Position numbers and translations under genes: made by a program. A stretch of 32,856 bases of DNA. Source: Bacteriovoracales bacterium. GTDB lineage: Bacteria; Bdellovibrionota; Bacteriovoracia; Bacteriovoracales; Bacteriovoracaceae. The notes under the pieces are model-generated. The model was not told where the DNA came from. It worked only from the letters and a program-made list of their open reading frames with translations, and did no database searches. Positions 136-16,924 of the stretch are shown in pieces. Location of the stretch: contig JAPONP010000059.1 of NCBI GenBank assembly GCA_026713835.1, positions 1 through 32,856 on the forward strand, in the 5' to 3' direction. Position 1 is the first letter of the stretch, and every line of letters starts with the position of its first letter.

Positions 136-214
136 GATTTTTCTTGACCTCCTTCGCCCCCCGTTGCATCCTGGGAAACATTATTTACCTCAAAAGCGAC
201 AGTGGGGCCTCATC

Positions 215-1540
215 ATGGAAATGAAACCTGTCTATCTAGTGGATGGAAGAAGAACTCCTCAGGCCAAGGCCGGCACGGTCTTGAGCGATGTGGAGCTTCC
301 CTTTCTCGGAACTTCTCTTTTAAAACTCTTAAAGGATGCCCACGGCATCCCGACCGACCGGGTGGATGAGGTCATCATCGGAAACCTGGGGGCCAAGGCC
401 AAGTACAGCAATGTCTCGAGAATCGTCGCTTTGGAGAGCGGGCTCACCAAACGCACCAGCGCCTATACGGTCAACCGCAACTGCGCCTCGGCCATGGAGG
501 CCATGGCCCAAGGTTTTCTCAAGTTGGCCTTCGGCCAGGCCCAGGTGATCTTTGCGGGAGGGATCGAATCCATGTCCGGGATGCCCCTCCTCTATGGGCC
601 CGAGATGACGGATCTCTTCGTGGGTCTTATGAAGGCCAAAACCCTTTCGGCCAGATGGCAGGTGATCAAGCGCTTTCGCCCCCGCCATTTAAAACCCGTC
701 ATCGCCGTGGAACAAGGGCTGACGGACCCCTTCTGCGGTCTCAATATGGGACAGACGGCTGAACTCTTGGCCCGAGAATTTGGCATCACCCGAAAGGAGC
801 AGGACGAATTTGCCAATAGGTCCCACAAGTTGGCCGTGGCGGCCAGGGAGGAAGGGCGCTTTGGGGATGAGATCGTCCCCGTCATCGGCGGAAAGAAACT
901 CGATCGACTCATCGAAGAGGATTTTGGGCCCAGAAAGGATTCCTCTGCGGAAGGCCTTGGGAAAATGCGCCCCTTCTTCGATCGCAAATCCGGCACGGTC
1001 ACCATCGGAAACGCTTGTCCCATCACCGACGGGGGGGCCCTTTGGCTCATGTGTTCCGAGAAAGCCGTGGAGACCTACGGGCTCAAGCCCATGGCCAAAA
1101 TGTTGGGCTTTCACTTCGCCGGAGTGGAGCCGGAGCGCATGGGGATTGGCCCCGTACCGGCCATGGGCCACGTCCTCAAAAAATGCAATATGAGTCTGGA
1201 TCAGATGGATCTCATCGAAATCAACTAGGCCTTTGCGGCCCAGGTTCTAAGCGTCCTCCACGTGGCCCGGGACCGGGAGCTTTGCCGACGCTTTGGTGCC
1301 GACGACGCCTTGGGGGATATCCCCATGGAAAAACTCAACGTCAACGGAGGAGGCATCGCCTTGGGACACCCCGTAGGGGCCAGTGGGGCCCGCATCGTGG
1401 TGACCTTGGCCCATGAGCTAAGAAGAAGGAAGGGGCGATACGGTCTGGCCTCTCTTTGCGTGGGAGGGGGCCAGGGCGGGGCCCTCATCATCGAAAATAT
1501 GGAAACGAAAGAACCTGCACAAAAGGAGACGACCTCGTGA
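215..1540 (+). pseudogene. fadI: FadI-type acetyl-CoA acyltransferase (thiolase) interrupted by one in-frame TAG
   Basis: Enzymes of this family perform the last step of fatty-acid beta-oxidation, cleaving 3-ketoacyl-CoA to acetyl-CoA and a shortened acyl-CoA. Read through the stop, the frame gives about 441 residues, close to FadI. The nucleophilic cysteine is at residue 90 (NRNCASAM), the histidine at 385 ([10 protein letters not shown]) and the second cysteine at 415 (CVGGGQGG). The only break is TAG at 1226-1228, codon 338, where the conserved NEAFA motif would have GAG for Glu. Both sides are in the same frame and well conserved, so the lesion is recent, a sequencing error, or read through. 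ATG at 215 fits the family N-terminus better than the upstream TTG at 164. The 3' end overlaps fadJ by four bases (GTGA). Without readthrough a 337-residue fragment lacking the catalytic His and second Cys is made. Confidence 0.88.
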
Positions 1541-3663
1541 ACCTAAGCTCTTTGAGCTTTGAGATCAAAAGGGGCGTGGCCCACGTGGGCTTTGGGAAAG
1601 ACCCTAAGACCTCCATGCCGATTTTGGATAGACGGACTCTCGAAGAATTGGAAAAGGTGGTGGATCGTGTGGAAGAGGATCGTCAAAAACTAAAAGGCCT
1701 TCTTCTTTTTAGCCACAATTCCAGGGCCTTTTTGGCCGGGGCGGATATCTCCCTTATCGGTTCCATGAAAAGCGAATCCGATGCGGCCCACGGGGCCGAA
1801 AGGGGCCAGGCCCTTTTCAACCGCATCGAAGATCTCCCCTTCCCCACCGCGGTCTGTATTCACGGGATTTGCTTGGGCGGAGGCTGTGAACTCGCCTTGT
1901 CCTGCCAAAAGATCTATCTTTCCGACGACCCCGCCACCCGTATTGGACTGCCGGAGGTTCAACTGGGCCTTATTCCGGGCTTTGGGGGAACCTACCGTAT
2001 GCCAAAGAGGGTGGGGCTTTTGAGTGCCTTAGATCTCATTCTCACGGGAAAAAAGATCGACGCCAAAAAGGCCAAGAGGATTTCCCTGGCCGACGAAACC
2101 TACCCCAAAGAAAAACTCGTGGAGATGGCCTTGGCCACTATGGGAAAAAGGCCCAAGAAAAAAACCTTCGGGCAAATCTCTTCTCGATGGGCCAAGGGTA
2201 ATTTTTTCTCCAAAAAGATCATCTTCTCCAAGGCCCGGGAAAATGTCCTCAAAAAAACCAAAGGGCACTACCAGGCCCCCCTTAAAATTTTAGACGTGAT
2301 GGAGGACGGGCAGGGCAAGGGGCGAAGTTCGTATCTTGCGAGCGAGGCCATGGCCTTCGGGGAGTTATGCCTTGGAAACCAGGGGCAAAATCTCCTCCAT
2401 ATCTTCTCCCTTATGGACGGGGCCAAAAAATACAAAGGGCCGAAACCTAAGGGCCCGGTTCCCTCCCTTTCCCAAGGGGGAGTGCTCGGGGCCGGCACCA
2501 TGGGTGGAGGACTCGCCTGGCTTTTTGCCCAAAACGGCCAAAGCCCCCTCTTAAAAGATGTGAGTACCAAAGCTTTGGAGCTTGGGCTCGCCCAATCGGG
2601 AAGCAATTTTTACGGGGCCCTCAAGAGAAAAAAAATATCAAGGAGTCGGTACCAAAAACTTCAACGCTCCATTACCCCCACCCTCTCCTACGAGGGCTTC
2701 AAGTCCGTGGATCTTCTCATCGAAGCCGTCCCGGAAGATATGGGGATTAAAAAGCGCATCCTCGCCGAAGCGGAAGGTTTTGTGGGAGAAAAGACCATCA
2801 TCACCTCCAATACCTCATCTTTAAGCATTACGGAAATGGCCAAGGCCCTCAAAAGACCCGAACACTTTGCAGGGCTTCACTTTTTTAACCCCGTTCACAG
2901 GATGCCCCTGGTGGAGATCGTGACCCACGAAGCCTTGGCCCACGAAACCTTGGAGGCCCTCTACCATTGGGTTTTGGCCGTGAAAAAGACCCCGATTATC
3001 GTCAAAGACGGGCCCGGTTTTTTGGTCAACCGCATCCTCCTTCCCTATATGAGCGAGCCCATCCACATGATGGAAGCAGGTATCCCACCGGAAGCCATCG
3101 AAAAGGCCTGTCTCAACTTCGGTATGCCCATGGGCCCCTTTCGCCTTCTCGATGAAGTGGGCCTTGACGTAGGCGCCAAGGTCTCCCATATCCTCCACAA
3201 GGCCTTGGGCCCTCGCATGGCCGTCTCCTCTCTCATGGATGAAGTCGTGGCCTCCGGCGCCCTGGGACGAAAGAGCGCCAAGGGTTTTTACCACTACGAT
3301 GAACGGGGCAAGCAGGGAGAATGGAACCGAGAAGTAGATGCCTTTTTCCCCTCCAAAAAATCCTCATCTTCTCCGGACGAGACCACTCTCCAAATGATGA
3401 TCTTTCTTCCCATGATAAACGAAGCGGCCTATATCCTCGAAGAGGGCATCGTCTCCGGTGCGAGAGAGGTGGACCTAGGCCTTATCTTTGGCATAGGCTT
3501 TCCTCCCTTCAGGGGAGGACTCCTCCGTTATGCGGATTACGAAGGACTCGAACGCATCACCAAGGCCATGGAGGGTTTTTCCACCGAGATCGATCCCTAT
3601 CGCTACACCCCTTGCCCCTATCTCAAAAAACTAGTGGATGAAAAGAGGTCCTTTTATTCGTGA
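1537..3663 (+). CDS. fadJ: Multifunctional beta-oxidation protein: enoyl-CoA hydratase / 3-hydroxyacyl-CoA dehydrogenase (FadJ/FadB alpha-subunit type)
   Basis: The protein has 708 residues, the usual FadJ length. Residues 1-190 form the crotonase domain, with the oxyanion-loop stretch FLAGADI and the two catalytic glutamates at about 118 (GGGCELA) and 140 ([12 protein letters not shown]). From about 315 a Rossmann dehydrogenase domain begins with [11 protein letters not shown]; the SNTSS and [10 protein letters not shown] motifs and the C-terminal 3-hydroxyacyl-CoA dehydrogenase folds follow. It would hydrate enoyl-CoA and oxidise the hydroxyacyl-CoA with NAD+, handing product to the thiolase encoded just upstream. 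The start is GTG at 1537: an AGGAG at 1524-1528 sits nine bases upstream, and the GTGA overlap with the thiolase stop implies translational coupling. It is intact although its partner gene carries a stop codon. Family assignment is firm; the choice between FadB and FadJ is not. Confidence 0.95.
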
Positions 3664-4829
3664 CCGTCTTTTCCCCCTTCGTCCGCTATAGCTTTCGCTA
3701 TCTCTTTTTGGCCCCCTCGGGGAAAAAACTTTTACTCTTGGCCCTCGTGGGACTTTTTCTCTCCTCCTTTTCCCTCCTCGTCCTTCAGGCCACCATGGGC
3801 GGGCTTCAACACAACCTCAAAAAGCGCTCCAAAAATGCGGTAGGACACGGGGAGTTCGTCCTTTTCGATCAATCGGATTCCTTTTCCCAAAAAATTGCAA
3901 ACGCCCTGTCGCAAGAGGGCCTTTTACCCCTTCGAGAATACGAGATCGAGCTTTTGGTCAGACGCAAGGCCTACCTCTCCCCCCTGATCGTTCACGGGGT
4001 GGAGGATTCCCCGAAGCCCCCTTCCTTCTTGGAGGGGCTTTCTGCGGGAGGCATCCTTATGGGAGCGGATGCGGCCCATAAACTCAAAGCAAGGCCTGGA
4101 GACGGGCTTCAATTCATCTCCCCCATCCACCTGGATCCCGTCTTGGGAGGAATCCCCAGGAGTGTTTCGGATCGTATCGCAAGGCTTGCGGTAACGGAGG
4201 TTCCCGAACTCGACCTCTTCCATGCCTGGGTCAGGGACTCCAAGATCCACAACCTCATCCAAGAGGTTCGCTATAACAAGATTCGCCACTACTTGGGCCC
4301 TTCGACAAAGGCCCGGAAGTTGGCCCAAAAGTACCCGAAAAAACTCCTCTATTTTTCCTGGGAAGAGATCCACCAAAGCCTCGTCTGGGCCTTAAATCTT
4401 GAAAACACCGTGATGCTCGCCCTCTTTATCGCCATGGCCCTCTTGGTTTCCATCTCCATCAGTAGCGGTCTATTCATCTTTTACCAAAAGATTCACCGAG
4501 AGATGATCGGCTTTTGGATCATGGGGGCCGGTGAAAGACAACTCATCAAATCCTGCCGTCTCTTCATCCATCTTTTGGCCCTCTCGACCTGCGCTTTGGC
4601 CATGATCTTTGCCCTTCTCTTTTTGGAGTCCATGGATTATTGGTCACCTCTTCTCATGCCCGATATCTTTGTGGATCAAAAAATTCCCGTCCGAGTGACG
4701 TTCCCCCACCTCTTGCTCTCCTTTCTCATTCCCTACGGGGTCGCCGTCCTCTTTTCCCACCTCTCCCTCGCAAGCTTTAAACGAAGACATCGCCACCACC
4801 TCACCCACCTGCGCTCCTTCGGGCAATAA
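3660..4829 (+). CDS. FtsX/LolC-type ABC transporter permease (MacB-like topology)
   Basis: The 389-residue membrane protein has one hydrophobic helix near residues 23-46, then a periplasmic domain of roughly 200 residues, then three more helices near 250-278, 300-322 and 345-367. This is the topology of the LolC/LolE/FtsX permease family, and the N-terminus ending in FLSSFSLLVLQATMGG resembles LolC/E proteins. Those proteins work with a LolD-like ATPase to release lipoproteins from the inner membrane. No such ATPase is encoded next to it, so substrate and partner are unknown. It starts at GTG 3660, sharing GTGA with the fadJ stop, and is therefore the third cistron of the beta-oxidation operon. 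A functional link to lipid metabolism is only suggested by position. The stop at 4827-4829 is followed at once by non-coding repeats. Confidence 0.78.
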   Translation: MTVFSPFVRYSFRYLFLAPSGKKLLLLALVGLFLSSFSLLVLQATMGGLQHNLKKRSKNAVGHGEFVLFDQSDSFSQKIANALSQEGLLPLREYEIELLVRRKAYLSPLIVHGVEDSPKPPSFLEGLSAGGILMGADAAHKLKARPGDGLQFISPIHLDPVLGGIPRSVSDRIARLAVTEVPELDLFHAWVRDSKIHNLIQEVRYNKIRHYLGPSTKARKLAQKYPKKLLYFSWEEIHQSLVWALNLENTVMLALFIAMALLVSISISSGLFIFYQKIHREMIGFWIMGAGERQLIKSCRLFIHLLALSTCALAMIFALLFLESMDYWSPLLMPDIFVDQKIPVRVTFPHLLLSFLIPYGVAVLFSHLSLASFKRRHRHHLTHLRSFGQ

Positions 4830-8677: not shown

Positions 8678-9685
8678 TTAGACTCTTTTGGGGTCGCTCG
8701 CCCTTTCAAAATAATCCACCTCGTAAGCCGCGCTGTCGTCGAGTCCCTTTCTCTTTTTATCATAGCGTTCCGTGGTGCTGGTTTGACGATGGCCCGCAAA
8801 ATCGGCCACGTCCCGAATGGGCCTTTTTTGGGTGTCCAGAAGATGGCTGATGACCGTGGCCCTACAGGAATGGGCGCCGACCCTCTTGGTGATCCCAAGG
8901 CCCGCAGCATAGCGCTTCACGATGCGGTAGATGGTGGACCCGTCACAAGGGCGTAGGTTTTTTCCCTTGCGATCGGTTTGGATGAGAAAATCCCCTCCCT
9001 CAAGAGTTCTTCCCGTTAGACTCGAAAGCCTTTTTCCGTAGGCCTCGATCTCTTCCATCACGGCTTCGCTCAAGGGAACGAGGCGTTTTTTCCCCCCTTT
9101 GCCGTGGATGAGAAGGGCCGTGTGGCCCCGTTCTTTAACGATATCTTCCATCTTGATTTGGGCCAGCTCGGCCCGACGAGGCCCCAAGTAAAAGAGAAGG
9201 ACGAGGACGAGGCGGTGGGTATTGCCGGAGAAGGTCTCCACATCGGGAGCGTCGATCATGGAGCGGACCTCATCGTCGTCAAAGGCCACGGTGGGAGAGA
9301 GGGTTTGAACCTTGGGGAGTTTCACGGCCTGGAGGGGGTCGTGGTCGATGAGTTTTTGCCCCAAGGCCCATTTGACGAAGGAGCGGACCGCCACCATCCT
9401 GCGTCCCACGGTGGCCGGGGCCAGGCCTTGTTCCATCATCCAGTCCCGGTAGAGGGACAAGTGGTAGGAGCGTATCTCGGAGGGATGAGAGAGCTTTTCT
9501 CCCCCCATGGCCAAAAAGCCGGAAAAGGTCGCCAAATCCCTCAGGTAGGAGAGCCTGGTTCTTTCGGAGATAAAATTTCCCAAAAATTCCCGAAAAAAGT
9601 TTTGGATGTGCTTTCCCTGCGCCTTGGCCTGTTCAAATCGCTTGGGCCACTTCGGACAAGACACCTTCCTTGGCAAATGCTTCAT
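8678..9685 (-). CDS. Xer-type tyrosine recombinase (phage integrase family)
   Basis: The 335-residue enzyme has an N-terminal SAM-like core-binding domain (about 25-115) and a C-terminal catalytic domain. All catalytic residues are visible: Arg170 in LGPRRAEL, Lys in HGKGGKKR near 196-200, His272-x-x-Arg275 in AHSCRAT, His299 in FAGHRQ and the nucleophile Tyr308 in TERYDKK. Length and layout match XerC/XerD, which resolve chromosome dimers at dif with FtsK, slightly extended at the N-terminus. No flanking attachment sites or phage genes are seen, so a housekeeping role is more likely than a mobile-element integrase, but a second Xer would be needed for a classical pair. A perfect TATAAT lies six bases before the ATG. 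Only 26 bases separate this start from the divergent gene at 9712. Confidence 0.9.
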   Translation of the reverse strand: MKHLPRKVSCPKWPKRFEQAKAQGKHIQNFFREFLGNFISERTRLSYLRDLATFSGFLAMGGEKLSHPSEIRSYHLSLYRDWMMEQGLAPATVGRRMVAVRSFVKWALGQKLIDHDPLQAVKLPKVQTLSPTVAFDDDEVRSMIDAPDVETFSGNTHRLVLVLLFYLGPRRAELAQIKMEDIVKERGHTALLIHGKGGKKRLVPLSEAVMEEIEAYGKRLSSLTGRTLEGGDFLIQTDRKGKNLRPCDGSTIYRIVKRYAAGLGITKRVGAHSCRATVISHLLDTQKRPIRDVADFAGHRQTSTTERYDKKRKGLDDSAAYEVDYFERASDPKRV

Positions 9686-9711: not shown

Positions 9712-10662
9712 ATGGGAATCATCGGGGCCGGAATTGCCGGGGAAGTGGCGGCGTTTTTTCTCCTCAAGGACGCTCATCGGGTCTGCCTCTACGACCCGGG
9801 GGAAAGAAGGGCCCAGGCCTCTTGGAACAGTAGCGGGGTGGTGGGAAGTTTTGGCGCAAGGGCCGGGTTCGGGGCCCACGGGAATCTTTTGAGCGAGGCC
9901 TTGCCCTGCGCCTTGGCCTTTTACGAGGGTTTTGACCACTCCTCCATTCTCAAGACCCCTCTCCACACCCACGGATCTCCCCAAGACGAGAAATTTTTGC
10001 GCCGATTCTCCCATCTTAGGCCCTCTTCTTTTTCTTTTCCGGGGCTCCAAAGTTTTTGGGAAACCGGGCTTCTCGTGGATATGAGGGCCTTTATGGGAGA
10101 GATCAAGTGCCGTAACTCCCTCTCCCCCCTTTGTACGAGAGTCAAGGAATACATCACCTCTTGGGAGCAAGTGGATGATCGCCACGACGCCGTCCTCTAC
10201 GCCCCGGGGGCCCTCCGGCATCTTATGGCCCTGGACGATCTCGCAAGTCGGCCCAGACAGGGGAGTTTACTGGTGTGGGAGGGGGATTTTTTTAGGCAGA
10301 GCTTCCACCACGATTTTTACGGTCTTGGGAGTATAAGCTATAGGAAAGAGCACGGAAAGCTCATGGTGGGGGCCCAAAATGGGGCCGGCATGACCTCTCT
10401 CGGGCACCTTGGGAAAGCTTTGGATCTTTACGACAGGCTCGCCCCTCTTTGTCCCGAAGGCCCTCTTCCCCCCTTTGCCAAGGCCAAAATGATCTCGGGG
10501 GTTCGAGAGCTTGGGGTGGGGAGGAGGGCGGCCTTAAACGATTTGGGCCGTGGGCTCTATTCCATGAGTGGGCTCTACAAAAACGGTCTTACCTTGGCCC
10601 CTTTTTTGGCCAAAAAACTTGTGGACTCCATCAACATCAAAAGGAAAGGCCAAGGCCCATGA
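9712..10662 (+). CDS. FAD-dependent oxidoreductase of the DAO (glycine/D-amino-acid oxidase) type
   Basis: The 316-residue protein begins with the dinucleotide-binding motif MGIIGAGIAGEVAAF, followed by an acidic strand end (VCLYDPGE) and a conserved-looking ASWNSSGVVGSF. The C-terminus, GLYSMSGLYKNGLTLAPFLAKKL, matches the end of DAO-fold enzymes, which close the FAD site there. Members oxidise amino acids or sarcosine, or act in tRNA modification like MnmC; the substrate here cannot be named. ATG 9712 is preferred over ATG 9706 because AAGGA (9701-9705) is then six bases upstream. The usual GxxPxTPDxxPxIG segment near the end is poorly kept (GVRELGVGRRAALNDLG), so activity may differ. Its last 26 bases overlap the convergent gene starting at 11446. 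Confidence 0.78.
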   Translation: MGIIGAGIAGEVAAFFLLKDAHRVCLYDPGERRAQASWNSSGVVGSFGARAGFGAHGNLLSEALPCALAFYEGFDHSSILKTPLHTHGSPQDEKFLRRFSHLRPSSFSFPGLQSFWETGLLVDMRAFMGEIKCRNSLSPLCTRVKEYITSWEQVDDRHDAVLYAPGALRHLMALDDLASRPRQGSLLVWEGDFFRQSFHHDFYGLGSISYRKEHGKLMVGAQNGAGMTSLGHLGKALDLYDRLAPLCPEGPLPPFAKAKMISGVRELGVGRRAALNDLGRGLYSMSGLYKNGLTLAPFLAKKLVDSINIKRKGQGP

Positions 10663-11446
10663 GAACGGAGGACTGGGTGCCGTCTTCAATCTGAGAAGCC
10701 AGTTGGTCCAAAAGAATCTGGTCGTTCACGTAGGAAAAGCTTCCCGTTGGAACGAGAAAACTTCTGGCCTCCTCGTTTCCTCCAAAGTTTTTCCCAAATT
10801 GTCCCTGAACGATGATCCTCATGCTATCCCCAAAGGGAATAAAGAGCCCCAAAAGGGCGGAGATATTCATAAAAAAGCCGCTATAGCTTTCGTCTCCGTA
10901 ATTGGAATAACCGGAGGAGGAATCACCGGACCTCGCACTTTCCTCCACATCCCCGTCAAACTCCAAGGCCAAGCGATTGAAGCCAAAGGCCGCTCCCACA
11001 AAAAAGCGGAGATTTCTCTTCGGGGCCGGAAAATGCCTGAGTCTCAAATCCACGGAGATAAAATGTCCCTCGATCTCCCTTTCCCTATAGGTTGTGCCGT
11101 AGGCCCCTCTATAGTCCGAGCGACTGAATCCGAAGGGACTTTTCTTAAAGGAAACCGCCGTATGGCCAAGGCCTAGGGATATATGGGTTTTGGGTGAAGA
11201 CTTGGTGGCAAATTCCAAGAAAAAGGAAACGTCCTCCGAGGAATCCGTCTCCACGTCCCAATTGTCTTTGGAAAGGGAAACGTCCGTTCCTCCCCCCAAA
11301 AAATAGAGTCCCGTCATTTTTTTGACTTTTTTTGGAGAAGGCGGCCCTAGCTCCCAGGCCCCCGCCTCAAAGTCGTCCTGGGCCAAGGAGGGCCCTGAAA
11401 GCCATGAAAAGATCAAAAGAACAGATAAAGGAATCGCAAATCGCAC
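10637..11446 (-). CDS. Outer-membrane beta-barrel protein (paralogue of the next minus-strand gene)
   Basis: The 269-residue product starts at GTG 11446, with a strong GGGAGGGG about nine bases upstream. MRFAIPLSVLLIFSWLSGPSLA is a signal peptide cleaved before QDDFE. The mature protein shows alternating hydrophobic and polar strands (FISVDLRLRHF, RFFVGAAFGF, SVLMGLGLSF) and ends in phenylalanine, as outer-membrane barrels recognised by BAM do. Its last 130 residues resemble the neighbour at 11605-12627: YVNDQILLDQLASQIEDGTQ here matches YINEQMVLEDLSSQIEGGSQ there, so the two arose by duplication. Its function is unknown. It lies after the neighbour's terminator and so probably has its own promoter. 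The 3' end overlaps the oxidoreductase gene on the other strand. Confidence 0.78.
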   Translation of the reverse strand: MRFAIPLSVLLIFSWLSGPSLAQDDFEAGAWELGPPSPKKVKKMTGLYFLGGGTDVSLSKDNWDVETDSSEDVSFFLEFATKSSPKTHISLGLGHTAVSFKKSPFGFSRSDYRGAYGTTYREREIEGHFISVDLRLRHFPAPKRNLRFFVGAAFGFNRLALEFDGDVEESARSGDSSSGYSNYGDESYSGFFMNISALLGLFIPFGDSMRIIVQGQFGKNFGGNEEARSFLVPTGSFSYVNDQILLDQLASQIEDGTQSSVLMGLGLSF

Positions 11447-11604: not shown

Positions 11605-12627
11605 TTAAAAAGCCAATCTCATTCCCAAAAAGACGTTCACCTGGGACCCGCCCTCTATTTGGGAAGAGAGATCTTCCAGAACCATTTGCTCATTTATGTA
11701 GTGATGACCGAAGGCCATTTGACGAAAATCTCCATGATCCTTATTTCGACCAAAGTTTTGAGCGAACTCTCCGTGGGCCATAAGGCCAAAGGTTTTGGAA
11801 AAATCCATCTTGAGCCCAACCCCTATGCCGGCACTCATAAAAGAAGAACTCCACGTCTCGTTCCCGTACCGATCGTAGAGGGAATAAGAGTTGTAGGGAA
11901 GCCATCCGTAGGGATTTCGGCCTCGATCATAGTCCAAATTGAGACGGGAAAAACCCATAAATCCACTGACGAAAGGATGAACCTTACCCTTGCGCTTCAT
12001 GAGATAAAAACGCCCTCTCAAATCCGCAGACAATATGTCTCCGCTTATACCCCTCTCCGAATAACCGAAGGAAAGGCGATCGAAGCTGTAGGGGTTTTCA
12101 TCAAAGCTCAAAGCGTTGTAGCCCAAGGCCACACCGATATCGACCCTTGGAGAAAGCTCGCCGGAAACCTCTAGGCGAAAAGAGCCGTTGCTCGAATGCC
12201 TGCGATTGGAAAAGCCCGAGCTATTCGAGACGCTAAGGTCACTCTGCCCGGCCCATATATAGAGGGATATCTCTTCGAGTCCCTCATCTTTTGCGACGGG
12301 GGCCTTTTTGACCGAGGCGGCTTGCTGGGGTCTGTCGTTAAGACCCTTGCCGGTAAACATATTTTCGAGACGTCGGCCCATCTGTTCTTCTTGCTTGAGC
12401 CGCATGTTTTCGACGGTGTCGTCCACCTTGTTATTGATTCTCTTCTTCAGGTCTTTGATCCTCTCTCGCGTTCGATCTGCTGCCGTAGGCGCAGGTTTCG
12501 GCCTATTGTAAAGACCATCTACATCCACTTGCTCGGAATCAAAGACCTCGAAATCCTCTTGGGCCAAAAGCCCCCCTCCATTAAAGGAAAGGGCCAAGGC
12601 CACAAAAAAAGCTGTTGCTTTTAACAT
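11605..12627 (-). CDS. Outer-membrane beta-barrel protein with an N-terminal coiled-coil extension
   Basis: The 340-residue protein has a signal peptide (MLKATAFFVALALSFNGGGLLA) cleaved before QEDFEV. Residues about 45-95 are charged and helical (RTRERIKDLKKRINNKVDD...EEQMGRRLENMF) and likely form a short coiled coil in the periplasm. From about 120 to the end the sequence is barrel-like, rich in Tyr, Ser and Gly, and ends in AF. Compared with the paralogue at 10637-11446 the extra piece is this coiled coil, so one copy gained or lost a periplasmic arm. AAAGGAGGA (minus strand, 12631-12640) gives a strong SD, and a promoter lies at 12666-12693. Function is unknown; structural, porin-like or cell-wall-binding roles are possible. 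Confidence 0.8.
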   Translation of the reverse strand: MLKATAFFVALALSFNGGGLLAQEDFEVFDSEQVDVDGLYNRPKPAPTAADRTRERIKDLKKRINNKVDDTVENMRLKQEEQMGRRLENMFTGKGLNDRPQQAASVKKAPVAKDEGLEEISLYIWAGQSDLSVSNSSGFSNRRHSSNGSFRLEVSGELSPRVDIGVALGYNALSFDENPYSFDRLSFGYSERGISGDILSADLRGRFYLMKRKGKVHPFVSGFMGFSRLNLDYDRGRNPYGWLPYNSYSLYDRYGNETWSSSFMSAGIGVGLKMDFSKTFGLMAHGEFAQNFGRNKDHGDFRQMAFGHHYINEQMVLEDLSSQIEGGSQVNVFLGMRLAF

Positions 12628-12702: not shown

Positions 12703-12729
12703 CCAAACCCTGTCATTTTTACACGGTTT
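12703..12729 (-). repeat. 21-bp dispersed motif, copy 2, within a small palindrome
   Basis: Positions 12703-12723 are the exact reverse complement of 4839-4859. Here the motif is also part of an inverted repeat, CCAAACC at 12703-12709 and GGTTTGG at 12725-12731, which the other copy lacks. It sits just upstream of the promoter at 12666-12693, reading toward that gene. A binding site is possible but not shown. Confidence 0.5.
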
Positions 12730-12844
12730 GGCCCGGAATTCCCGGCAAAAAATCCGTAACCTATTGAAATTGCTAACTATTTTTAAAGACCTCCTCCCCC
12801 TCTTTTTTGACACCGCCCCCTCCCCCGAGGCACAATGCGAATAT

Positions 12845-13990
12845 ATGGCCCCTCCCCTCCACCTCCTCCTCATCCGCTTTTCCTCCATAGGGGATATCCC
12901 CCTACATCTATGCGTTGCGGCCAATATCAAGGAGCGCTGGGGAAACCGGGTCCACCTCTCCCTTCTCACCTCCTCCCTCTGTGCCCCCCTGATGGAAGGG
13001 GCCCCCTTTATCGACGATATCCACGGCTTTCCCAAAAAGGCCCCTCCGAAGGCCCTCCTTCGTTTCATTCGCTCCATCCACCAAAAGAAAAAGATCGATT
13101 TTCTCCTCGACCTTCACGGCTCCCTTCGCTCCCTTTTGGTTCGCCTCTACTTTTGGAAAATCCCCGGACTTTGTCTCGATAAGAGAAGTTTTGAGCGCCA
13201 TCTTCTCATTTTTGCCAAACTCGATCTTCTCTCCTTTCAATACCGCTCCCCCTCCAAAGGAAGTTCATCCAAAGGAAGTTCAAAGGAAAGAAAGAGGGGG
13301 GAGGGGGAGCCCGTCGTGGAAAGAATCCCCAAAGACTTCGCCCCGGTCTTTCGCTACCGCCCGGAAGAGAGGGAGGGAAAATGGCCCAAAACCTTTTGCG
13401 CAAAGACCTTTGAAAAGTCCTCCTTTTTACGACCTTCCTCCCTGCGCTCCCCCTATATCCTGGTCGCCGTTTCCGCCTCCCAGGCCCAAAAGAGATGGCC
13501 CCTCTCCTCCTACGAGAGATTTTTGGCCCAAGCCTTGGTGGACGAGGACTTCCAAGGGCTCCAATTCGTCATCACTGCAGGGCCCGTGGATGACTTTTGC
13601 TCAAGGTTTTTTGAATTGGAAAAAAGACACCCGAAACGCCTCCTCAACCTCCAGGGGAAAACCTCCCTTACGGAAAGCGTCCACTTGGCCAAAGAGGCCC
13701 ATTTTTGTCTTGGAAACGACACGGGAATCCTCCATCTGGCCGAATCCGTGGGCACCCCGGTTTTGGCCATCTTTGGGCCCACGGGCCAGGCCCAAGGACT
13801 CTACCCCCACCTTCCGGAAAGCGACACCCTCTCCCTTTCCCTTTGGTGTCGCCCCTGCAACACCAGCACCAAGGGGCGTTGCATCCGCTCGGAACGCTTT
13901 TGCCTGACCCGCATCTCCCCGGAGATGGTCCGGGACAAACTCAAAACCCTCCTCAGGGCCCTTCCCCAAAACCGGATCGTCTTGCCGTGA
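12845..13990 (+). CDS. Glycosyltransferase family 9 (ADP-heptose:LPS heptosyltransferase type)
   Basis: From ATG 12845 the product has 381 residues. It starts with the GT9 signature LLLIRFSSIGDIPLHL, the donor half carries VSASQAQKRWPLSSYERF, and GNDTGILHLAESVGTPVLAIFGPTG is the family's most typical segment. GT9 enzymes add heptose to the inner core of lipopolysaccharide at the cytoplasmic face of the inner membrane. A serine-, lysine- and glycine-rich insert with the repeated stretch KGSSSKGSS lies between the two domains, near residues 135-150. The frame is open back to 12728, but the extra residues do not look like the family and no good SD is seen for either start. The stop overlaps the waaA start (GTGA). 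Whether it is WaaC-, WaaF- or WaaQ-like cannot be told. Confidence 0.87.
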   Translation: MAPPLHLLLIRFSSIGDIPLHLCVAANIKERWGNRVHLSLLTSSLCAPLMEGAPFIDDIHGFPKKAPPKALLRFIRSIHQKKKIDFLLDLHGSLRSLLVRLYFWKIPGLCLDKRSFERHLLIFAKLDLLSFQYRSPSKGSSSKGSSKERKRGEGEPVVERIPKDFAPVFRYRPEEREGKWPKTFCAKTFEKSSFLRPSSLRSPYILVAVSASQAQKRWPLSSYERFLAQALVDEDFQGLQFVITAGPVDDFCSRFFELEKRHPKRLLNLQGKTSLTESVHLAKEAHFCLGNDTGILHLAESVGTPVLAIFGPTGQAQGLYPHLPESDTLSLSLWCRPCNTSTKGRCIRSERFCLTRISPEMVRDKLKTLLRALPQNRIVLP

Positions 13991-15294
13991 GGGCCTTTTT
14001 GGGGATGGTCTGCCGGGTTCTTTGGCCCCTCTCAGCCGCCATCCTGCGCCCCTTTTTTCAAAAAAGGCTCGCCTTTGAGAGAAAAAACCGCCCGGCCCCC
14101 CTCCCGACCTTTCCCGACAAAAGGGCCCATATCGCCTTTGAGGTTTCCAGCGAAGGGGAATTGGAACAAATACGCTTTCTCCTAGAAGACATCCTCCGGG
14201 AAGGCAAGATCGTGGAACTCATCTATTGTTCCGAAAGCGTGGAAAAAAACGTGGATCACCTTCTCCAAACATTTCCTAAAGCCTTGAGGGTCTTTCGCCT
14301 TCCCCTCCTCACCTCCTCCCCCCTGACCGACCCCAAGTCCTCTGCCCTGCACTTTCTCACGGCCCCGATCCTCGTCCTGTGTCGATACGACTTCTTTCCG
14401 GAACTCTTGCTCTATGGTCTCACCAAGGCCCGTCTCTTCGTGCTCCTTTCCGGCGCTCTTTCCCCAAGGGCCCGGGGAATGGGGGCCCTTTTCTACCGCC
14501 CTCTCTTTCGCCTCTTCGATCTCATCGTCCCGGTCTCCCCCCAAGAAGGGGAGCGCTTTAAGGCCCTTCTTGGAAGCCCCGTCTCCCGGGCCTTAGACCT
14601 AAGGGCCCTTAGAATCCGAAGCCGCCTTCAAAAGGCCCATACAACCTTCCGGGCCAAAGGGATGGAGAGGTATTTGGATTTTATCGAATCGTGGCCCGGG
14701 GAAAATCGGCTTCTTTTGGGGCAATTTTATGCCCACGAGTTTGACATCATAAAAGACCCCGCCCTTTGGCAGGCCTTGTCCGAGGGAAAGATCCTTCTTT
14801 GTCTTTGCCTCCACTCCTCCTCCCAAAAGGAAAGGGACGAGACCGTTCGGAAGGCCTTGGCCTTTTCCGATTCCTTTCCCTCTTTGCCCCCTCTTCAAAT
14901 CATTGGAGAAAAAGAGCTTCAAGGAGGTGAATTTTCCCCCTTTCACCTCCTTGATCTTAGAGGCGTTTTGTGCGAACTCTACTCCCTTTTTCCCGTAAGC
15001 TATATCGGAGGAGGATTTGGCAAGTCCATCCATTCGGTTTTAGAGCCGTTCTTGGCCGACTCCCACGTCATCTGCGGCCCCAAAGTCCATCGCTCCAGCG
15101 AATACGAGTTCATCCACACCCAATACCCCAAGGCCTTGACGACCCTTTCCCGAAAGGAAGATTTTTTGGGGGCCTTTCGCAAGGCCTTGGACAAAAAACA
15201 CACATTTTTGGGCCTAGGTCCCCGGTTCATGACTATAATGGAAGAACGATACGAAAAACTCAGGAGAGAGCTTCTCTATGACCCTTCTCGATAA
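13987..15294 (+). CDS. waaA: 3-deoxy-D-manno-octulosonic acid (Kdo) transferase
   Basis: The 435-residue product matches WaaA/KdtA in length. A hydrophobic N-terminal anchor (MRAFLGMVCRVLWPLSAAI) precedes a GT-B fold. The acceptor-side stretch FEVSSEGELEQIRFLL corresponds to the family's SxGE region with the general-base glutamate. VLCRYDFFPELLLYG stands where other WaaA proteins have KTDLWPN-like sequence. The donor-side YIGGGFGKSIHSVLEPFLA matches FVGGS...HNPLEPA of WaaA. The enzyme transfers Kdo from CMP-Kdo to lipid A precursor. Residues in these motifs deviate from the E. coli type, so the lineage is distant. GTG 13987 overlaps the preceding stop as GTGA; the longer open frame from 13705 is only a shadow of the GT9 gene. 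The next gene starts 17 bases before this stop. Confidence 0.87.
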   Translation: MRAFLGMVCRVLWPLSAAILRPFFQKRLAFERKNRPAPLPTFPDKRAHIAFEVSSEGELEQIRFLLEDILREGKIVELIYCSESVEKNVDHLLQTFPKALRVFRLPLLTSSPLTDPKSSALHFLTAPILVLCRYDFFPELLLYGLTKARLFVLLSGALSPRARGMGALFYRPLFRLFDLIVPVSPQEGERFKALLGSPVSRALDLRALRIRSRLQKAHTTFRAKGMERYLDFIESWPGENRLLLGQFYAHEFDIIKDPALWQALSEGKILLCLCLHSSSQKERDETVRKALAFSDSFPSLPPLQIIGEKELQGGEFSPFHLLDLRGVLCELYSLFPVSYIGGGFGKSIHSVLEPFLADSHVICGPKVHRSSEYEFIHTQYPKALTTLSRKEDFLGAFRKALDKKHTFLGLGPRFMTIMEERYEKLRRELLYDPSR

Positions 15295-16924
15295 GAGTTT
15301 TGGACAAATCCTGGTGGGCCGCCACCACCTCTCCTTTATCGCAGGCCTTGGCCTTCTCCACCGAAAGGAGTCCGTCCTCCTCATCGATGATGAGAGGGCC
15401 AGGCCCGGGCCCCTCTGGGGGCAATTTCTCTCCCCCCTCGATGTCCGCTACCTGGAGCTTTGGGGCATCGCCACCAACATCGACGAACTCAAAGGTCTCG
15501 CCCACTATATCGAGGGGGTTCCCCTGAAATTCTATATGGGGGACAAACTCATCTATCTGCCGGGAAGGCCCTTTGATAACGTCAGAGAGCTTTTGAGGTG
15601 GTTTCCCGATGTCTTCTCCGAGGCGGAGAATATCGTCGGCGGGAGTGGGGAGGAGTTTGACCGAGATTTTGAGCGAGGGAGCGAACGACTCGCAGAAGTG
15701 AGCTTTCGCATGAGGACGACCCAAACCCTTCGCCCCCACTTTTTTGAGGAAATGGATTGGCCCCTTTTTGAGGATCTTTCCAAAAAGGCCTTTGAAAGCT
15801 ATCAAAATCTTCTCACCACAAGGCCCTCCCACCCCTTTATCCAGTTCATCAATTTGGGAAAGTCCCTCTACCATCGGGAGATTCTTCTCGAAATCGATGA
15901 ATTTGAAATGGGCCATCTCCTCCTCTCCTTCTTGGGCCCTCTCTACCGACTGGACTCCAAGACCTTTGAGCAAGACTTGTGTTCCCGCTTTCTCGAAAGG
16001 GGGGGCCTTTGCAAAAAGGCCCATATCAACCACTGGCAAATCCACGAAAATGAACTGGCCCATATCGAACTCGATAGCTTTGAGGGGGTTCTCCCCGTCC
16101 ACCACTGTCACCTCATGGGCCCCCTATGCCCCCAGTTTCCCTTCGACAGTGAGGTTGAATCCGAAAAGTATCGATCGGCCTTCTATAGGATTCGTGGACC
16201 GGGGTGCTTCGATTTGATCCCAAAGGAGCGAATCCTCTACTCCGGGTTCGATCACTTGGGAAGCGATATCCCCCTCATCGACTTCTATGCCCCCTCGCCG
16301 GATCTTCTCTACGCCTTTGTGGCCTATCGCCATCGCCACAAATCAAAATACAATTTCTATCAAAAATATCTCAGATCCTTTTTGGATCAGGCCCTCGAAC
16401 AAGTCCCCATTCGCCAAATCCCCCAAAGGGATCTGAAGATCGAGGTGGAGGAAGGGGAGAGTTTTTGGATACACCGAAACGAAATGAGCTTTGAAAAAAA
16501 TTGCCAAACGCGAAAAAAGCGATTGGATCTCATGGAGACCCCCCGTGGGCCCGGACAAACCAAAATCCGGCGCTTGGATCATTGGGGGCCTTCCCGATGC
16601 TATAGCATCGGAATCTTTAGCTACCTTTTGGAACTCAAGGAGCATTTGACTCACGTCCCCGGGCCGATATCCCCATCCCCCAAAAATCCGGGCCCTCAAG
16701 GCCCCGTGGGCAGCCCGGGCCAAACCACCGTGGAATATCTCCTCCTCATCGGGGTTTTGAGCGTCATCTTCTTTTCCCTTCTCCCCCTCATGAAAAATCG
16801 GCTCGTAGGGGATGGAAATTGCAGGGGTCAGGACTCCCAAACGATTTTTTGCCGCATCATTTCCTCCATGGGGCTTGAGGGGGGGGCCCGGGGAACCTAT
16901 CGCACTTTTACCCTCAAACGCTAA
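15278..16924 (+). CDS. Rossmann-like protein of unknown function with a C-terminal type IV prepilin-like segment
   Basis: The 548-residue frame starts at ATG 15278 inside the waaA end. Residues 8-45 (GQILVGRHHLSFIAGLGLL...SVLLIDDERA) look like a degenerate FAD/NAD-binding beta-alpha-beta unit of an amine-oxidase-like fold; the region up to about 455, ending RCYSIGIFSYLLEL, behaves as one domain. A Pro/Gly-rich linker follows (465-480). Then comes PGQTTVEYLLLIGVLSVIFF, with G481, Q482, E486 and a hydrophobic helix, the class III/type IV prepilin pattern (cleavage after Gly, Glu at +5). It ends with two cysteines and a basic tail. An internal TTG at 16646 with AAGGAG three bases upstream, or GTG at 16706, could also start a small separate pilin-like protein. 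I do not know this fusion from any named family. Confidence 0.72.
   Translation: MTLLDKSFGQILVGRHHLSFIAGLGLLHRKESVLLIDDERARPGPLWGQFLSPLDVRYLELWGIATNIDELKGLAHYIEGVPLKFYMGDKLIYLPGRPFDNVRELLRWFPDVFSEAENIVGGSGEEFDRDFERGSERLAEVSFRMRTTQTLRPHFFEEMDWPLFEDLSKKAFESYQNLLTTRPSHPFIQFINLGKSLYHREILLEIDEFEMGHLLLSFLGPLYRLDSKTFEQDLCSRFLERGGLCKKAHINHWQIHENELAHIELDSFEGVLPVHHCHLMGPLCPQFPFDSEVESEKYRSAFYRIRGPGCFDLIPKERILYSGFDHLGSDIPLIDFYAPSPDLLYAFVAYRHRHKSKYNFYQKYLRSFLDQALEQVPIRQIPQRDLKIEVEEGESFWIHRNEMSFEKNCQTRKKRLDLMETPRGPGQTKIRRLDHWGPSRCYSIGIFSYLLELKEHLTHVPGPISPSPKNPGPQGPVGSPGQTTVEYLLLIGVLSVIFFSLLPLMKNRLVGDGNCRGQDSQTIFCRIISSMGLEGGARGTYRTFTLKR

Follow-up and report, generated by a model that had tools for sequence, protein, structure and literature searches.

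The window analysed here, 32,856 nucleotides of contig JAPONP010000059.1 from the Bacteriovoracales bacterium assembly GCA_026713835.1 (a draft genome of 2.34 Mb in 235 contigs), carries a lipopolysaccharide core gene, waaA, followed by a single long reading frame in which a large predicted domain is joined to a small pilin-like one. The features at this locus are:

11605-12627, minus strand: homologue of an outer-membrane-type protein, C (BLASTP against Halobacteriovorax marinus C, E 8e-28, 26% identity)
12728-13990, plus strand: GT9 heptosyltransferase gene upstream of waaA (Pfam Glyco_transf_9, E 8.5e-24)
14005-15294, plus strand: waaA (Kdo transferase), 429 aa from its likely start (Pfam Glycos_transf_N, E 2.5e-6)
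15278-16924, plus strand: fused A-B gene, 548 aa, an uninterrupted reading frame
15278-16645, plus strand: part A, residues 1-456, predicted flavoprotein-fold domain of a class-specific unnamed family (profile built without the window, AlphaFold2, Foldseek)
16646-16717, plus strand: Pro/Gly-rich linker, residues 457-480 (24 residues)
16718-16720, plus strand: Gly481 (Gly-1), the expected prepilin peptidase site (this Gly is invariant in the B alignment)
16721-16921, plus strand: part B, residues 482-548, Flp-type pilin (profile built without the window, alignment, Pfam, AlphaFold2)

The fused reading frame and its surroundings

The fused gene lies directly behind waaA, whose stop ends at 15294, and, as the original prediction had stated, overlaps it; the overlap is 17 bases. 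Against a family A profile from which the window was left out, residues 4-456 scored E 2.1e-91; a family B profile built in the same manner from 20 relatives matched residues 481-548 (E 1e-18). Judged by these homologies, the ORF is two proteins in one frame, related to the separate families A and B. The predicted C-terminal prepilin signature was likewise borne out: the processing signature SPG^QTTVEYLLLIGVLSVIFF lies near the C-terminus of the 548-aa ORF, with Gly-1 at residue 481, Glu at +5, Tyr at +6, a hydrophobic helix (residues 483-509), a Cys pair and a basic-aromatic end, and 67 residues follow the putative cut. As read from the sequence, the pilin processing site is complete, yet in this large protein it lies at the opposite end from the usual one.

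AlphaFold2 modeled the window protein with a mean pLDDT of 83, predicting a domain of high confidence through about residue 459, disorder at residues 464-484 (pLDDT <50) and the long helix at 483-509. The linker region occupies the position at which relatives have the stop of A and the start of B. Its only in-frame internal start codons are TTG 16646 and GTG 16706, and a TGA is present in the +1 frame at 16647-16649, where the end of A is expected. The junction was also checked for a TATAAT-like box, an ATG and a basic leader of B, and none of these was present.

Elsewhere in the locus, C lies directly behind B in many relatives; in the window its homologue is upstream and inverted. An outer-membrane-type gene that resembles it by eye adjoins it (10637-11446, minus strand), and a frame that by eye looks like a tyrosine recombinase (8678-9685, minus strand) is found near the rearranged part. 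Thiolase, fatty-acid oxidation and permease-like genes at 164-4829 resemble, again by eye, those that follow C in H. marinus (L086, 9073-13381), so the locus appears syntenic but rearranged in between.

Relationships of parts A and B

The B motif, GQxxxEY followed by a hydrophobic helix, is that of Flp (type IVb) pilins, and its G, Q, E and Y columns are invariant in the B alignment, window included. Part B of the window keeps Gly-1, Gln+1, Glu+5, Tyr+6, the Cys pair and a C-terminal YRTFTLKR; the Cys pair and an aromatic-basic C-terminus (e.g., RYFTIRR) are common to most aligned members. Since the profile match extends past the helix over the Cys pair and YRTFTLKR, the fallback offered by the original prediction, that the helix is just a transmembrane anchor, is disfavored. 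When 21 B members were scanned against Pfam (E up to 0.1), 17 matched Class_IIIsignal and 12 matched Flp_Fap.

Flp pilins outside the Tad locus have been reported in Bdellovibrio and in H. marinus SJ, which has three (Avidan et al. 2017, PMC5430801), and the non-Tad flp4 of B. bacteriovorus is required for predation and does not respond to FliA (PMC5430801). B resembles these pilins in its GxxxxEY motif and hydrophobic stretch, its small size, its location away from the Tad locus and its occurrence in the same predator group. In contrast, they are free prepilins with a short leader, whereas the window pilin forms the C-terminal end of a 548-aa chain. In H. marinus SJ, B probably corresponds to one of the three non-Tad flp genes. 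A link of B to A and waaA is absent from the main text of that paper.

Prepilins are inserted so that the leader, of 6-26 residues, remains inside the cell, and cleavage takes place at the cytoplasmic face (PMC4471445). The window protein shares with type IV prepilins and class III signal peptides the Gly-1, Glu+5, hydrophobic helix and cytoplasm-facing site; it differs from them in having 481 residues, including a folded domain, in place of the short leader, which in B of relatives measures about 5-26 residues. At least one Lys or Arg occurs in the ten residues before Gly-1 in 49 of 52 compared sequences; the window protein has none there and carries Lys/Arg after the pilin helix, giving poor positive-inside signals. 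The missing charge before the helix would count mildly against normal insertion. A genome search for prepilin peptidases, as the original prediction had proposed, found two Peptidase_A24 genes above the Pfam cut-off, at C67 and C16, together with several traffic ATPases. Other Flp-like genes lie at C16 and C15, the former adjoining a prepilin peptidase gene.

For part A, the proposed amine-oxidase-like flavoprotein held at the level of the fold, which Foldseek places with FAD-dependent oxidoreductases, but not at the level of sequence. Pfam and NCBIfam scans of A (the window protein and 19 members) matched neither a Pfam flavin family nor any NCBIfam model, and the A profile retrieved nothing reliable from PDB sequences (best E 0.4). 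At the position of the second Gly of GxGxxG, 40 sequences have a residue: 39 of them carry N, S, H or T, and one has Gly. G14, D38, R107, G437 and G445 are near-invariant in the alignment. The model of H. marinus A reached a mean pLDDT of 91. Phytoene desaturase CrtI (4dgk) was the first Foldseek match of the window model (E 3.7e-11), with Rab GDP-dissociation inhibitor (Rab-GDI) third, and Rab-GDI filled matches 1-9 of the H. marinus model, followed by CrtI and amine oxidases that scored almost equally (4dgk, E 2.9e-11). TM-scores of the A models against flavoprotein folds were about 0.35-0.5, which places the kinship at fold level.

With CrtI and amine-oxidase-type flavoenzymes, A shares the predicted fold and an acidic residue ending the second strand. 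Unlike them, it has no Pfam match and a replaced second Gly in GxGxxG. Rab-GDI uses a flavoprotein fold to hold a membrane-anchored partner. Although nine Rab-GDI entries lead the PDB fold comparison for H. marinus A, their identity to A is about 10-13%, the TM-scores are below 0.5 and A has no GTPase partner, and the similarity in the models may be one of shared fold only. Overall, we weakly favor a role as pseudo-enzyme or chaperone over that of a classic flavoenzyme, and A is predicted to be cytoplasmic. Two A genes, in L005 (G009:C19, 1480-2841) and L017 (G023:C11), each contain one in-frame stop with B intact downstream; they are either pseudogenes or sequence errors.

Distribution of the A-B pair in the class Bacteriovoracia

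The comparison set comprised 129 genomes of the class Bacteriovoracia, all of one family. A was present in 116 of them (44 of 48 genera), as a rule in single copy. In a sample of the phylum no convincing occurrence of A was found outside the class; weak matches beyond it were mostly mere short stretches, and those of family f17 were remote relatives, one of which follows a waaA gene. B was the next same-strand gene after A in 109 of the 116 A-bearing genomes, usually just behind waaA, with a median of 44 bases between the two profile matches. In the seven others the two were on different contigs or B was not among the matches listed, and some of these drafts are broken at contig ends. A gene with the waaA motif ended approximately at the start of A in 34 of the 38 loci with enough flank.

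Whether relatives encode the pilin part separately had been posed as a check, and they do: A and B are separate genes, side by side, in the other 108 genomes with adjacent pairs. They share a reading frame in 33 of the 109 pairs, about the one third expected by chance, and among the pairs listed only the window has them in one open frame, so the search for homologues with the same fusion yielded none. As the stop between A and B is missing only in the window, the fusion is lineage-specific and not a system in itself, contrary to the earlier suggestion of a new one. A 526-aa open frame at B in G105 was considered as a second fusion and rejected: B starts there from an ATG with a box of its own, and A is in another frame. 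Scanning named genomes with the window protein as query brought up no relative; a Halobacteriovorax-type protein as query matched a single one, H. marinus, which places the window organism among Bdellovibrio-like predators.

Some loci depart from this arrangement. In G126 and G129, where the search missed A, waaA and B flank a gene whose product resembles A remotely or marginally. In a small genome of 1.6 Mb (G089:C15; L092, 1210-2050) all that stands between them is a 197-codon frame retaining a weak trace of A, while B itself is intact, indicating that B can be kept where A is incomplete. Outside the class, in a different family of the phylum (L111, G187:C12, 246-3430), waaA is followed after about 480 bases by a 470-codon flavoprotein-like gene with remote similarity to A, and no pilin gene was seen beside it; the waaA-A link may therefore be older than the A-B link. 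Adjacency is accordingly no proof of interaction, as both the retained B beside an A fragment in G089 and the remote A-like gene near waaA without B make clear. Taken as a whole, the distribution points to A-B as a class-wide pair in a predatory clade, a more general finding than the fusion and a partnership so far unstudied. From this conserved gene order, A and B probably act together across the class.

The two genes may still be transcribed apart. A TATAAT-like box (at least 5 of 6 matches to TATAAT, with the second A and last T fixed) ended 6-8 bases before the B start codon in 26 of 48 relatives, and exactly 6 bases before it in 20; several of the relatives belong to a single genus, and a rule was used to assign the start codons. 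Shuffled sequences gave such a box in 3 cases on average and 8 at most. It stood 5-8 bases before 6 of 227 other long ORFs of the same loci, a background set that includes possible non-genes. This geometry suggests a leaderless promoter of B. With such a promoter-like box of its own, co-expression of B with lipopolysaccharide core synthesis, part of the original prediction, becomes doubtful for the relatives. Boxed relatives include L007, L034, L036, L042, L047, L049, L054 and L091, the box lying inside or just behind the A gene. Among titles and abstracts, no direct match was found for leaderless genes in Bdellovibrio or for C-terminal prepilin signals.

Origin and possible function of the fusion

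The original prediction was half right: the ORF is a genuine fusion, and it belongs to a single lineage. The main reason for regarding it as genuine is that box, ATG and basic leader are all gone at the junction, which argues against a simple indel artefact. We give an even chance to the fuller reading, that neighboring A and a dedicated non-Tad Flp-type pilin B were joined in this lineage, that the two probably cooperate, and that cleavage after Gly481 is possible. Two further ideas were discarded: that the C-terminal piece is a sorting tag, given its homology to entire pilin genes, and that the gene is a frameshifted pseudogene, given that both halves are intact.

The alternative to be taken most seriously, although we consider it unlikely, is a neutral fusion, in which A works alone and a lost stop merely appended the next gene, the helix serving as an anchor or being tolerated without prepilin processing. 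The restriction to one lineage, the missing leader-like charge before the helix, and the contrast between a single-copy, widespread A and a B that is dispensable as a separate gene in the window organism all speak for it. On the other hand, the conserved residues of B outside the helix are intact despite the lost promoter, start and leader, and the fusion thus does not look brand new. Free pilin might instead be made, besides or in place of the fusion, by internal initiation at GTG 16706 or TTG 16646. Both codons are in frame, AAGG stands 4 bases before GTG 16706, a few relatives start B with GTG or TTG, and in some of them A and B overlap by a few bases, as in translational coupling. However, GTG 16706 would give a 5-residue leader without a basic residue, and the promoter-like box before it is absent, which makes this route improbable.

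More improbable still is a sequence or assembly error masking a normal stop between two ordinary genes. The draft is in 235 contigs, and because a +1-frame TGA stands where A would be expected to end, one miscounted base could mask a stop; moreover, the genome that contains the window is the sole one of its genus in the comparison set. The outcome named at the outset as refuting a new system, separate genes in relatives plus an indel here, was accordingly found in its first half, the indel not being demonstrable. Yet A stays in frame with its relatives through residue 456, waaA upstream is of normal length, and an indel would have spared the ATG, basic leader and promoter box of B.

Under the preferred reading of a genuine fusion with a possibly cleaved pilin, loss of the stop of A and of the promoter, start and basic leader of B would have turned A plus the 24-residue linker into the pilin "leader". 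A would sit in the cytoplasm, a single helix would span the inner membrane and about 40 residues would reach into the periplasm, as is normal for prepilins. Since the prepilin leader stays inside the cell and is removed at the cytoplasmic side of the membrane, a large domain there, ahead of Gly481, would in principle be compatible with processing. A prepilin peptidase, its active site facing the cytoplasm, could then cut after Gly481, freeing A and a normal 67-residue pilin in a 1:1 ratio, and in uncut molecules A would stay tethered at the membrane next to the pilin. The most likely role of A would be to bind, chaperone or modify its pilin. Counting against this reading are the 481 residues before the cut, compared with known leaders of 6-26 (PMC4471445).

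A bolder form of the proposal, which we regard as quite unlikely, would make A either a GDI-like chaperone lacking flavin or an enzyme that modifies pilin, in both cases serving one non-Tad pilin and occurring in a single predatory class; in the window organism the two would form a single chain split by prepilin peptidase, with a folded 480-residue protein as leader. To our knowledge, neither such a partner for a type IVb pilin nor such a long folded leader has been known before.

Across a class related to Bdellovibrio, one non-Tad pilin thus has a constant neighbor of unassigned role, and their fusion in one lineage is a classic hint that A and B act together. The A-B pair offers a concrete gene pair for study in a cultured predator, and the window fusion a natural test of the leader length that a prepilin peptidase tolerates.
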